The translations under genes were made by a program, and so were the position numbers. A stretch of 18,923 nt of DNA. Origin: a bacterium. GTDB taxonomy: Bacteria; UBP18; UBA7526. The notes under the pieces were generated by a model, which made no database searches, was not told where the DNA came from, and saw only the letters and a program-made list of their open reading frames with translations. The stretch is from the NCBI GenBank assembly GCA_030619985.1, contig JAUXAI010000015.1, forward strand, positions 1-18,923, read 5' to 3'. Positions 10,324-15,170 of this stretch are shown here, in pieces; positions within the stretch are counted from its first letter, which is position 1; each line of letters starts with the position of its first letter.

Positions 10324-11517
10324 ATGATTGAGATTAAGATAACTGATAAGTGTACTGGCTGTGAGAAATGTATCCCCAGCTGTCCCTACGGTGCCATAGA
10401 AGTCGTTGATAAGAAAGCGGTCATTTTAGATACTTGCACCCTCTGCGGAGCATGCGTTACTTCTTGTTCCTTTAAGGCCATTGAACTCACCAAGAAGGAA
10501 GTGAAGATGGCTGGCCTCGAGGAGTATAAAGGGGTATGGGTCTTTGCTGAACAGAAGAATGGAAAGGTGCAGAGCGTGGTCTATGAACTCTTGGGCAAGG
10601 GAAGGGAACTGGCTGATCAACTAAAGGTGGAACTGGCCGCTATTCTATTGGGAGAAAAGATGGAGAAGTCAGCCCAGGAACTCATCGGCTCTGGGGCAGA
10701 TAAGGTTTATCTTGCGGACCATGAGAAGCTGAAGGACTTCCGAGATGACTCCTATGCCGATGTCCTGGTTGATCTAATCGGTGAATATAAGCCAGAGATC
10801 ATCTTAGCCGGAGCGACATCCATCGGAAGGTCTCTCATTCCCAAGGTAGCAACCAGACTGGAGACGGGATTGACCGCAGACTGCACCGGATTGGAGATCG
10901 ATAAGGAGAAAAATATCTTACTCCAGACCAGACCGGCCTTCGGAGGAAATATCATGGCCACCATCATCTGCCCCAACCACCGGCCCCAGATGGCTACCGT
11001 AAGGCATAAGGTGATGAAGGAGGCCCCCTTCGATGAGAAGAGAAAGGGAGAAATAGTTAGGGTAGAGGTCGATCCTAAGAGAATCCCCTTGAGAACAGAG
11101 GTAATCAAGATGGTGGAGAGGATGGAGGAAACGGTTCTCTTGGAGGAAGCGGACATCATCGTCTCTGGGGGAAGGGGATTGGGAGCACCAGAGCATTTTA
11201 AGCTTATTGAGGAACTGGCCAAGACCGTAGGAGGAGCAGTGGGCGCTTCAAGAGCCACGGTAGATGCCGGATGGATTCCCTATGCTCATCAGGTGGGCCA
11301 GACAGGGAAGACGGTCTGCCCCAAGATCTACATCGCCTGCGGGATATCGGGCCAGATTCAGCACCTGGCTGGTATGCAGTCTTCAGATATCATCGTGGCC
11401 ATCAATAAGGACCCTGAGGCGCCCATATTCAATGTCGCTACCTATGGCATTGTAGGAGATTTATTTGAAGTAGTTCCCGCCCTAATAAAGAAGTTTAAAG
11501 AGATTCTCGGCGAGTGA
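10324..11517 (+). CDS. etfA: Electron transfer flavoprotein alpha subunit with N-terminal 2x[4Fe-4S] ferredoxin domain
   Basis: The protein is 397 residues. Residues 1-60 are a bacterial-type ferredoxin domain with two cluster motifs, C10/C13/C16/C20 followed by Pro and C38/C41/C44/C48, enough for two [4Fe-4S] clusters. The EtfA N-terminal domain follows from about residue 64, then the FAD-binding C-terminal domain with GGRGLGAPEHF, SRATVDAGWIPYAHQVGQTG and YIACGISGQIQHLAGMQ. Ferredoxin-fused EtfA is known from anaerobes such as the Acetobacterium woodii caffeyl-CoA reductase and lactate dehydrogenase complexes, where it works in flavin-based electron bifurcation. By analogy, this Etf could couple an exergonic acyl-CoA reduction by NADH to ferredoxin reduction. 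The gene ends in GTGA and is followed by a terminator hairpin. Confidence 0.95.
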   Translation: MIEIKITDKCTGCEKCIPSCPYGAIEVVDKKAVILDTCTLCGACVTSCSFKAIELTKKEVKMAGLEEYKGVWVFAEQKNGKVQSVVYELLGKGRELADQLKVELAAILLGEKMEKSAQELIGSGADKVYLADHEKLKDFRDDSYADVLVDLIGEYKPEIILAGATSIGRSLIPKVATRLETGLTADCTGLEIDKEKNILLQTRPAFGGNIMATIICPNHRPQMATVRHKVMKEAPFDEKRKGEIVRVEVDPKRIPLRTEVIKMVERMEETVLLEEADIIVSGGRGLGAPEHFKLIEELAKTVGGAVGASRATVDAGWIPYAHQVGQTGKTVCPKIYIACGISGQIQHLAGMQSSDIIVAINKDPEAPIFNVATYGIVGDLFEVVPALIKKFKEILGE

Positions 11518-11542: not shown

Positions 11543-11564
11543 ATGCCCAGGGAGGGCATTTTTT
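11543..11564 (+). terminator. Rho-independent terminator after etfA
   Basis: A perfect 6-bp stem, ATGCCC (11543-11548) and GGGCAT (11554-11559), with a 5-nt loop AGGGA is followed by a run of six T (11559-11564). It ends directly at the ATG of the next gene, so it closes the etf unit. Read-through would be needed to express the protease pair from upstream, since no convincing promoter is visible in the short gap. Confidence 0.75.
11551..11556 (+). promoter_or_regulatory. Shine-Dalgarno of the CPBP protease gene, inside the terminator hairpin
   Basis: GGAGGG spans the loop and 3' arm of the preceding hairpin, 8 nt before the ATG at 11565. It decides the start of the downstream gene. When the hairpin is folded, part of this site is paired, so translation may be limited. 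Confidence 0.55.
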
Positions 11565-13178
11565 ATGAGAAGAGAGGCTTTAATCATCTCAGTTATTATC
11601 TTAATTGGATTGGCAGGGTTGGCAACCTTTATTGCTTTCTACGATTCTGTCTTTCCTACTGCCTCTTTAGACTTCAAAATATCCCGACCGCAAGCCTTAA
11701 AAAATACTCGAAGGTTTGTAACTTCCCGGGGCTTTGACTTAAAGGGCTATCAAGAGACCATCATCTTCTCCCATGACTACTATGCCCAGATCTATATGGA
11801 GAAGACCATTGGATTAAAAGAGGCCAATAGGTTGATGAGAAAGGAGGTGAGCGTCTGGTACTGGAGGGCGAGATGGTTCAAGCCCCTGCAGAAAGAGGAG
11901 TTTAGGGTTTGCCTTGATCCTGGGGGGAGAGTGGTTAGATATAGCCATCTTCTCTTAGAAGACGCTAAGGGGGCGAATCTTTCAAAACCTCAGGCTCTGA
12001 AACTTGCCCGAATATTCCTGACTGAAGAGAAAGACTTTAATCTCTCAGAATATGAACTTGTAGAAGTCTCAAAGGAGAAGAGGAAGAACCGAACAGACCA
12101 TTACTTTAACTGGAAGAGAAAGGATTTTAAGATAGGGGATGCCACCTATCGCTTAACAGTAAGTGTCCAGGGGAATAGAGTAGATTCCTTCAGTGAATAC
12201 CTGAAGGTTCCTGAGAAGTTTAGAAGGGATTATAGGAAAACACGTTCCCGGGCTGGCCTTCTCTCTCAGATCGCCGGGTCTCTTCAGGGACTATTATTCA
12301 TTGGATTAATCCTGGTCTTTATGTTCAAACTCAGGGCAAATGATATAAGATGGAGATGGGCCCTGGTCTTGGCCTCTCTGGCAGCATTCCTGATCCTGAC
12401 CGCTCAGATCAATTCTCTCTCTTTAGTAAGATCGTACTTCTCTACTAAGGTGACCTTATCAAATGAGACCATTAAATGGATTTTTTCCGCCCTTATCATC
12501 ACCGGCCTGGGTGGTCTCTATCTCTGGTTTATCGGTTCCAGTGGTGAATCCCTATATCGGGAGGTCTTTCCTAAAAAGACCCCCCTGATTAAGAGCTTCA
12601 GATGGAGGAACATACTATCCCCTGAATTTACCAAGGCCTCCTTAGTTGGTTATTCTGTTGGTTTTGCCTTCTTGGGCTATTTAGTGGTATTCTACCTCTT
12701 TGGTAAGAAATACCTGGGTGCCTGGGCTCCAGCCCACAGCCCCTATGATAATATCATCTCCACCGCCCTTCCCTGGATCTATCCTTTAACCGTAGGAGTT
12801 ATGGCAGCGGTAGATGAGGAATTCTTCTTTAGACTCTTTGCTATCTCCTTTTTAAAGAAATATCTGAAGAAGATATATCTAGCAGTAATCATTCCGGCCA
12901 TCATCTGGGGCTTTTTACATTGTCTCTATGCTGTGGAACCCATCTACATTAGAGGATTGGAATTAACTATTGCTGGGATCATCTTTGGGATAGTCTTCTT
13001 GAGGTTTGGATTATTCTCTGTTCTCATTGCCCATTATGTTATAAATGCCTTGATAGTGAGTCTACCCCTCTTGCGTTCCAAGAGTCCCTACTTCTTTATC
13101 TCTGGCCTGGTAGTGGTAGGATTAGCCCTTCTACCCATCATCCCCGTTGTCATTAGACTGTTAAGGAGGAAGAGATGA
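11565..13178 (+). CDS. CPBP-family intramembrane metalloprotease with extracytoplasmic sensor-like domain
   Basis: The 537-residue protein begins with a membrane segment (about 6-25). A ~205-residue hydrophilic region follows that looks PepSY-like, with two weak repeats each built around a 'DL.GY/DLSEYEL' element and a block with WRARWFKP. About eight more membrane segments come next. The C-terminal part has all three CPBP (Abi/CAAX protease-like) motifs: Glu418-Glu419-x3-Arg423, His452 in WGFLH, and His490-x3-Asn494 in HYVIN. CPBP proteases cut within membranes. Members process prenylated proteins, bacteriocin-related peptides or regulatory targets, and the substrate here is unknown. The open frame extends back to a GTG at 11514, but the terminator lies in that stretch and ATG 11565 has GGAGGG at 8 nt, so I start there. 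It is followed by a paralog with ATGA overlap. Confidence 0.85.
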   Translation: MRREALIISVIILIGLAGLATFIAFYDSVFPTASLDFKISRPQALKNTRRFVTSRGFDLKGYQETIIFSHDYYAQIYMEKTIGLKEANRLMRKEVSVWYWRARWFKPLQKEEFRVCLDPGGRVVRYSHLLLEDAKGANLSKPQALKLARIFLTEEKDFNLSEYELVEVSKEKRKNRTDHYFNWKRKDFKIGDATYRLTVSVQGNRVDSFSEYLKVPEKFRRDYRKTRSRAGLLSQIAGSLQGLLFIGLILVFMFKLRANDIRWRWALVLASLAAFLILTAQINSLSLVRSYFSTKVTLSNETIKWIFSALIITGLGGLYLWFIGSSGESLYREVFPKKTPLIKSFRWRNILSPEFTKASLVGYSVGFAFLGYLVVFYLFGKKYLGAWAPAHSPYDNIISTALPWIYPLTVGVMAAVDEEFFFRLFAISFLKKYLKKIYLAVIIPAIIWGFLHCLYAVEPIYIRGLELTIAGIIFGIVFLRFGLFSVLIAHYVINALIVSLPLLRSKSPYFFISGLVVVGLALLPIIPVVIRLLRRKR

Positions 13179-14872
13179 AATATAAGCCCCTGTCGAGAAA
13201 GAATATACTAATCCTGGTTGGACTGGCAGCCATAGGACTAACTCTATACCTTCTTTCCTTCTTCGCTATCCTTCCCGAGGTTCAGGATTTCGGTGAGACC
13301 CTTCATCTGACCACTACTCGTTGGGAGGTTCAAGAAACCTCCCAAAAATATTTAGAAGATCTGGGCCTTTCCTTGAAGGGTTACCGTTCTGTAACCTACT
13401 TTACCACTCGGGGAGCCGGAGTCTGGGCAGAAACCTATGTTCTGCGCCAGGTGGGGATGAAGAAGACCAACCAGATATTCACTGAGGAACTTCCCTTCTG
13501 GAGATGGAGAGCGAGGTGGTATAGGCCATTAGAGAAGGAAGAGATAAATGTCTGGATCGACCCTGAAGGAAGGGTCTGTGGTCTCTGGCACCCCATAGAA
13601 GAGGATGCCCCGGGTGCTAACCTCTCTCCCGAGGTAGCGAGAGCAATCGCAGAGAAATCCACTAAGGAAGAAGGGAGATTTGATCTATCAGAATTTAGGT
13701 TGATTAAGACCGATTCTGAGAAGCAGAAGAATAGAAGAGACCATATCTTCCTTTATGAGAAGGAGGAGCCCGAGATAGGGGAGGGAAGATTTAGATTAAA
13801 ACTGAGGGTAAAAGGAGACAGATTATTCGGTTATCACTACTTCTTCAAAACTCCAGAGGAGTTTATCAGGGAAGAGAGAAAAGCAGGCATTAGGAAGGCG
13901 ATCATCGGTGGACTAATGGTCCTCTTTTTTATCACCTTAGCGATTACTGCAATTGTTTTATTTTTCATAAAGTTTACGAGAAGGGATATCAGATGGAGAT
14001 TGGTCTTAATCTTAGCTGGAATATTGGCTGCTTGGAAGATAATAGGTCTACTAAACGGCCTACCCACTTTCTTCTCTCATTACTCGACAGCGAAGGATTT
14101 ACCGGTATTCGTTACCCAGCGAATTATATGGAATTTAACTGGTATTGTATCTGGGTTCCTTTTCTCTTGCGTTCTACTCTCTGTTGTAGAATCCCTGTGG
14201 AGAGAGGTCTTTCCTAAAATAGAGCCGCTCACTACTTGGTTCAAAAAATTAAAGCCCAGTAACTGGCTATCTCGAGAGTATATCGATGGCTGCCTGGTAG
14301 GATATTTGATATTTGGAGCTTTGGGGATCTATTCCCTTCCAATTGGCTGGATAACCCAAAGATATCTCACTTCTTCATTAAGGGCCCATTCCCAACTTCC
14401 CACGGGTATTCTCCAGACCTTCATCCCTTCTCTCGCTTCCTGGGGAAAGGCCTGGGGAGCTGCCCTATGGGGAGGAGCAGCCCTCCTTCTCTTCCTTCTC
14501 TTACTCAAGAAGTACTTGAAGAAGTGGAAATGGGTCATTTTAACCTTCGTTCTTCTTTCGTTTATAGGCGTTGCTATCGAGGCAAGGAGTCTCTCTGAAG
14601 GAATAATAAAGAGTAGCCTTTCTCTCTTAGGTCTGGGGGTAGCGATCCTTTTCATTATCAATTACTTTCGCTTCAATATCCTCTGCTACCTTTTTAGCGT
14701 TTACTTCGTTCTTCTATTATCAAATGGCTGGTATCTGGTTACTTTCAAACATTCCTATTTCATAATTCACGGGGTAATCATACTTGTCTTAGCCGCCTTA
14801 CCCCTTATTCTCTTACTTTTTGCCTATCTTAGAAAGAGACTGAGAAGCACTGAACCCCGCACCTTTAAGTAA
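13175..14872 (+). CDS. Catalytically dead paralog of the CPBP protease (pseudo-protease)
   Basis: The 565-residue protein has the same order of parts as the preceding gene: an N-terminal membrane segment, a ~200-residue extracytoplasmic region with WRWRARWYRPLEKEE and DLSEFRL, then many membrane segments. Clear collinear matches include R(R/A)DIRWR after the first long loop, SLWREVFPK, and LLKKYLKK. Where the neighbour has EEFFFR before FLKKYLKK, this protein has AALLLF. The WGFLH and HYVIN positions likewise lack histidine, with SFIGVA and VYFVLLLSN in about the same places. It is therefore unlikely to be a protease, and an interacting or regulatory partner is more likely. The frame is intact with no stop or frameshift, so it is not a decaying pseudogene. 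The ATG at 13175 overlaps the previous stop. Its last codons are part of a 12-bp inverted repeat. Confidence 0.82.
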   Translation: MKYKPLSRKNILILVGLAAIGLTLYLLSFFAILPEVQDFGETLHLTTTRWEVQETSQKYLEDLGLSLKGYRSVTYFTTRGAGVWAETYVLRQVGMKKTNQIFTEELPFWRWRARWYRPLEKEEINVWIDPEGRVCGLWHPIEEDAPGANLSPEVARAIAEKSTKEEGRFDLSEFRLIKTDSEKQKNRRDHIFLYEKEEPEIGEGRFRLKLRVKGDRLFGYHYFFKTPEEFIREERKAGIRKAIIGGLMVLFFITLAITAIVLFFIKFTRRDIRWRLVLILAGILAAWKIIGLLNGLPTFFSHYSTAKDLPVFVTQRIIWNLTGIVSGFLFSCVLLSVVESLWREVFPKIEPLTTWFKKLKPSNWLSREYIDGCLVGYLIFGALGIYSLPIGWITQRYLTSSLRAHSQLPTGILQTFIPSLASWGKAWGAALWGGAALLLFLLLLKKYLKKWKWVILTFVLLSFIGVAIEARSLSEGIIKSSLSLLGLGVAILFIINYFRFNILCYLFSVYFVLLLSNGWYLVTFKHSYFIIHGVIILVLAALPLILLLFAYLRKRLRSTEPRTFK

Positions 14873-14904
14873 AGAGAAGGAATTGAATAGCAAAAGGTGC
14901 GGGG
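14855..14904. repeat. 12-bp inverted repeat straddling the stop of the pseudo-protease gene
   Basis: CCCCGCACCTTT at 14855-14866 is the exact reverse complement of 14893-14904, with a 26-nt loop that contains the stop codon (14870-14872). No T-tract follows, so it is not a standard terminator by itself. It may protect or process the 3' end. Confidence 0.75.
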
Positions 14905-15018: not shown

Positions 15019-15170
15019 GTTTACAGTTAACGGTGTACCCGCTCCCCCGAGTCATCGGGGTCGCTGTTTACAGTAGAAAACCGTAAACAGTAAACAGCCC
15101 AAAGGGCGGGCGAATTGAATAATAATTATTCATCAGCGGGGCAAGTAAAACGCACCGCTCAACGGTAAAC
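15019..15170. repeat. Word-repeat-rich leader upstream of smc
   Basis: The gene-free stretch 14873-15189 holds the two hairpins and promoter listed separately, then this leader. The word GTTTAC/GTAAAC recurs at about 15019, 15066, 15083, 15090 and 15165. GCTGTTTAC (15063-15071) and GTAAACAGC (15090-15098) form a perfect 9-bp inverted pair. CCCCGA-gtca-TCGGGG (15045-15060) is a compact 6-bp hairpin, and GCCC-AAA-GGGC lies at 15097-15107. I recognise no known riboswitch, tRNA or leader peptide here. Confidence 0.7.
15116..15132. promoter_or_regulatory. 17-nt perfect AT palindrome, possible operator
   Basis: Arms TGAATAAT (15116-15123) and ATTATTCA (15125-15132) are perfectly symmetric around a single A. 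It lies in the smc leader, about 100 nt downstream of the putative start site. A dimeric regulator could bind it, or it may simply be another chance or repeat-derived palindrome. Confidence 0.35.

Follow-up and report, generated by a model that had tools for sequence, protein, structure and literature searches.

Control of a protease by a pseudoprotease is best known in eukaryotes, from iRhom and APH-1. Rhomboids have a serine-protease fold that is unrelated to that of the CPBP (Rce1-like) glutamic proteases. The likeness of iRhom to the locus studied here is by analogy of function only, and iRhom differs in being encoded by a separate gene rather than fused to an active copy. iRhom is a dead relative of an intramembrane protease that has been kept as a regulator (PMC3149277). 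Among proteins with the CPBP fold itself, APH-1 of gamma-secretase and LnsB of Staphylococcus aureus have degraded motifs and serve another enzyme (PMC7387801), and SpdC (LyrA) of S. aureus, an Abi-domain CPBP protein that lacks key catalytic residues, regulates membrane partners (PMC5854430, PMC7387801). Abx1 binds CovS and works without its catalytic residues (PMC3578759). In none of these four (Abx1, SpdC, LnsB, and APH-1) is a dead CPBP unit combined with an active paralog of itself. In a literature survey covering few subscription papers, we found neither a fusion of CPBP to SpoIIE nor one of protease to pseudoprotease; no system with the exact layout reported below turned up, in line with the preliminary description of this DNA.

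The locus lies in a window of 18,923 nucleotides (the whole stretch of bacterial DNA that was analyzed), between etfA and smc, and comprises two genes, W1 and W2 (Table 1). The preliminary description had noted that the genes overlap and share one order of parts, and both points hold: a single N-terminal membrane span is followed by an outer region some 215 residues long (212 in W1 and 217 in W2) and a multispan C terminus, with 8 or 9 more spans by hydropathy. The words WRARW, REVFPK, and LKKYLKK, singled out earlier, stand in collinear order in the two proteins. W1 matches PF02517 with an E value of 2.1e-11 (44.4 bits, against a cutoff of 22.4), and alignment finds its catalytic set complete, as had been claimed. 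We infer that it is a catalytic, glutamic-type intramembrane protease, its proteolysis being predicted from these motifs. W1 and the active halves of the fused relatives considered below resemble CPBP/Rce1-like proteases in their Pfam matches (W1 and several relatives) and in having all catalytic motifs, but differ from them in the large YcdB-like ectodomain and in the dead second copy that adjoins or is fused to the active one. For W1 the start at 11565 is preferred; GTG at 11514 would also be possible, but conservation with the sister genome does not extend over the added upstream part. A terminator-like hairpin with a T run (11543 to 11563) ends just 5' of the W1 start codon.

Table 1. Positions of the genes, motifs, and related fusions discussed in the text (window coordinates unless a locus is named).
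Feature	Position	Strand	Details and basis
W1, predicted active CPBP (Rce1-like) intramembrane protease	11565-13178	+	537 aa; PF02517 match and intact motifs
W1 outer region (aa 24-235), YcdB/YcdC-like ectodomain	11634-12269	+	Hydropathy; weak PF16244 match
W1 EExxxR motif (E418, E419, R423)	12816-12833	+	
W1 H452, FxxxH-type motif	12918-12920	+	H in 60/61 A halves
W1 HxxxN motif (H490, N494)	13032-13046	+	Relatives usually have D, not N
ATGA overlap, W1 stop and W2 start	13175-13178	+	Sequence; GGAGG just upstream
W2, catalytically dead CPBP paralog	13175-14872	+	565 aa; paralogy, alignment, profile match
W2 outer region (aa 30-246), paralogous ectodomain	13262-13912	+	Hydropathy; profile match
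W2 positions replacing EExxxR (G433, G434 ... L438)	14471-14488	+	Alignment
Phosphatase fusions	L032:7374-9857; L033:8310-10721; L086-L100; L147-L150	- (L032); + (L033)	YcdB-like ectodomain and dead CPBP part

The likeness of W2 to W1 is not due to chance, since the two proteins are 35% identical over 550 amino acids (tblastn E value of 3e-69). W2 had been called dead in a clean frame, and indeed all six positions aligned to the catalytic residues of W1 are changed (G433, G434, L438, E469, V509, and L513) within an open frame. W2 by itself has no match to PF02517 in Pfam. In profile comparisons its dead membrane core aligns to the active family core with a probability of 96% (E value of 1e-9), rather than its C terminus going to an unrelated membrane family, and its ectodomain matches those of the active halves with a probability of 99.95%; reversed-sequence controls with profiles of the dead units (the core of the fused dead halves, and the whole membrane parts of these and W2) stayed below 7%. 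Judged from these alignments, W2 is a member of the CPBP superfamily by descent. SpdC resembles W2 as a CPBP-family protein that has lost its catalytic residues, but it is a single unit without an active twin, and its known partners are histidine kinases; the enzymes partnering APH-1 and LnsB are of an unrelated fold, whereas here the partner is the active paralog. We infer from the ATGA overlap that W1 and W2 may be translationally coupled. An inverted repeat, CCCCGCACCTTT / AAAGGTGCGGGG, was spotted by eye across the W2 stop codon (14856 to 14904).

The resemblance of the outer region to the YcdB/YcdC domain is weak: PF16244 scores 20.3 bits on W1 (E value of 6e-4) and 15.2 bits on W2, against a cutoff of 27 that one fused relative passes on its dead half (30.2 bits). 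NCBIfam models all stayed below their cutoffs when run against W1, W2, and the tested fused proteins. Structure prediction for the two window proteins (four sequences) yielded a usable model of the ectodomain, with pLDDT mostly 76 to 89 in the W1 outer region, and a poor one of the membrane part, with pLDDT mostly below 50. With these models, neither Foldseek nor VIA-align (the latter without W1) returned a meaningful fold match, there being no PDB match at an E value of 0.001, and a sequence search of the PDB found nothing.

Purifying selection acts on the dead copy. The sister genome (G002) also has the pair, with protein identities of 97% for W1 and 93% for W2, and comparison with the window genome (G000) gives dN/dS values of 0.10 for W1, 0.30 for W2 (p of 5e-8 against equal rates), and 0.24 for the dead core of W2, its last 135 codons (p of 1e-6). 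For three pairs of fused proteins, the values are 0.11 to 0.17 for the dead halves and 0.07 to 0.11 for the active halves, with synonymous sites near saturation in one pair. These ratios indicate that the dead unit is kept, and on this basis decay of W2 was rejected. The retention of an inactive paralog beside an active protease, proposed in the preliminary description, is thereby borne out; a missing, frameshifted, or neutrally evolving second gene was not found, W2 being intact in the sole other genome found to have the pair. Within W2, codons 241 to 430 (13895 to 14464) differ from the sister sequence with a dS of 0.02, and the next 135 codons have a dS of 0.37; this mosaic of divergence suggests recent recombination.

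Presence and absence vary at the etfA-smc junction. In one relative (G004, L233), smc comes almost immediately after etfA and neither W1 nor W2 is there, and in another (G001, L232) the slot is taken by another protein, probably secreted, of some 256 amino acids. Neither gene was found in the other genomes of the window's family, which are incomplete, and a scan of contigs gave G002 only. Within this family, and in a small sample, the pair is gained or lost as a unit at this junction. At 15020 to 15098, between the upstream gene and smc, lie short, degenerate repeated words; such words are also present at the corresponding place in L232 and L233, and they differ between species.

In at least three other phyla, an active unit (A) and a dead unit (B) are fused, A first, in one protein of about 1,100 to 1,180 amino acids. 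For three phyla, fused open reading frames of more than 1,050 amino acids occur in 18 of 39, 13 of 82, and 35 of 101 genomes, and a wide sample of the domain, counted apart, added 10 further genomes with the fusion. The co-occurrence check proposed earlier thus returned the pair together in G002 and A-B fused elsewhere. We conclude, going beyond the preliminary description, that W1-W2 is the split-gene form of a widespread and apparently undescribed fused protein. That the halves are fused in at least three other phyla points to B as a conserved partner with a function rather than the product of a broken gene. In one fused protein (L191:3172-7038, minus strand, in G085), a single in-frame TAG breaks the frame within the B half, from either decay or sequencing error.

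The full catalytic set is found in 60 of the 61 A halves of the fused proteins versus none of the 61 B halves. By residue, the first glutamate is present in 60/61 A halves, the second glutamate and the arginine in 61/61, the histidine of the second motif and that of the last motif each in 60/61, and the final D or N in 61/61. Lone active units, mostly from one class, have the full set in all 23 cases. Near-invariance in A and in the lone units against free loss in B argues for selected catalysis in A, which makes it quite improbable that the whole system is nonproteolytic and that the conserved residues of W1 and A serve some other chemistry or structure, even though Abx1 is functional with its catalytic residues changed to alanine (PMC3578759). 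The exception among the A halves, in the fused protein at L229:3028-6474 (plus strand, G182), has the equivalents of E418, H452, and H490 replaced. Active units without any B occur in the class of G057, in family f31, and in G121; the catalytic unit therefore does not need B everywhere.

The history of the dead unit was examined in trees of 71 units and of a smaller set without the longest branches, used for topology testing, with A and B labels fixed beforehand by position in the fused protein. In the 71-unit tree, W2 falls among the B halves and W1 among the A halves. In the smaller set, the grouping of W2 with B has an SH-aLRT value of 99 and a sister relationship of W1 and W2 is rejected (AU p of 0.004); the membrane part alone gives 99 and again rejection (p of 0.019), and the N-domain alone gives 92, with the sister relationship not rejected (p of 0.27). 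Taken together, these results favor one old duplication followed by fission or fusion, with the long branches counseling caution, and they favor W2 as an ortholog of the B halves; the dead branch probably predates this lineage. That W2 is instead a recent, lineage-specific duplicate of W1 on its way to decay would fit this nonrejection by the N-domain and the fact that W1 is the nearest relative of W2 by BLAST, which could also arise because both evolve slowly. We consider such a duplicate highly improbable given an open W2 frame in two species, the dN/dS of W2 and of its dead core, and rejection by the full-length and membrane trees.

From this combination of features, we think it probable that W1 and W2 constitute a protease-pseudoprotease pair in which the dead unit senses for, scaffolds, or gates the active one. 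The two would be subunits of one complex, the split-gene counterpart of the A-B fusion, and W2 would be kept as a dead copy through membrane pairing with W1. Both paralogous ectodomains would jointly read an envelope signal, and the active CPBP fold would be gated or fed by its dead counterpart. That A and B are fused speaks for joint action of the halves, and that both ectodomains are conserved speaks for each of them detecting something outside the membrane. Of the heteromeric sensor-protease proposed in the preliminary description, the part that stands is an active protease with a selected dead paralog, on the grounds of selection and paralogy; heteromeric sensing itself stays conditional.

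B halves diverge faster than A halves (mean identity of 20% versus 33%), as a substrate-facing surface might. This would suit a purely structural role, in which W2 or B is a substrate-presenting or scaffold subunit that does no sensing and the ectodomains are structural, comparable to APH-1 in gamma-secretase, a CPBP member with poorly conserved catalytic residues that has been proposed to present substrates to presenilin (PMC7387801). However, conservation within B is highest in the ectodomain (A155, R187, D189, G214, and P227 in W2 numbering) and not in the membrane core, and the phosphatase fusions described below need no substrate presentation; we regard the purely structural role as rather unlikely. 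The identities of A and B correlate across organisms (r of 0.91, a value as high being reached in 0 of 2,000 permutations), but mirrored trees are expected for any two halves of one gene and are no evidence of contact.

In a third branch of the family, this ectodomain and a dead CPBP membrane part precede a SpoIIE phosphatase domain (PF07228), which Pfam found in 12 of 12 proteins tested. Such fusions are common in the phylum of G050. Two of their CPBP domains pass the Pfam cutoff and are therefore true CPBP descendants. The second glutamate and the arginine are often kept and the histidines are gone; with the full catalytic set in 0 of 18 phosphatase fusions, the ectodomain-CPBP module probably transmits a signal without proteolysis. 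The output domain is shared with RsbU-type SpoIIE phosphatases, which differ in their input: that of the third branch is an ectodomain with a dead CPBP membrane domain, for which we found no paper.

To judge from the phosphatase branch, a dead CPBP module is able to relay signals to the inside. Dead units fused to phosphatases would also be expected if W2 or B were a signaling pseudoenzyme with a target of its own (a partner kinase or hydrolase, for example) and were merely coexpressed with W1 or A. There are precedents in SpdC, which lacks key catalytic residues (PMC7387801) and binds histidine kinases (PMC5854430), and in Abx1, which controls CovS without its catalytic residues (PMC3578759). 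Yet B is found chiefly as a fusion with A, in several phyla, and clustering of the neighbors of 61 fused loci gave no gene common across phyla. An independent target is thus, in our judgment, unlikely. The upstream neighbors of these loci, named by eye, are mainly RadA- and thymidine-kinase-like, in the small-genome phylum; none of the conserved neighbors indicates a substrate. Fusion, ectodomain conservation, and the phosphatase branch together make sensing or gating for W1 the likeliest role of W2.

More broadly, and with confidence falling a little short of even, we propose an undescribed family of bacterial receptors in which a YcdB-like ectodomain is set on a CPBP fold that acts as an active protease, as a dead partner (split or fused), or as a dead transducer driving SpoIIE; the CPBP fold would then be a general transmembrane signaling module, freed from proteolysis at least twice. 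If so, many proteins annotated only as CPBP proteases may be receptors, and A-B fusions in several phyla, together with dead halves joined to phosphatases, would make it possible to test what a pseudoprotease does within a single chain. Another group, with proteins of about 540 amino acids (L065-L068, in G087, G088, G089, and G091), lacks the histidine of the second motif but retains the last histidine, the second glutamate, and the arginine.
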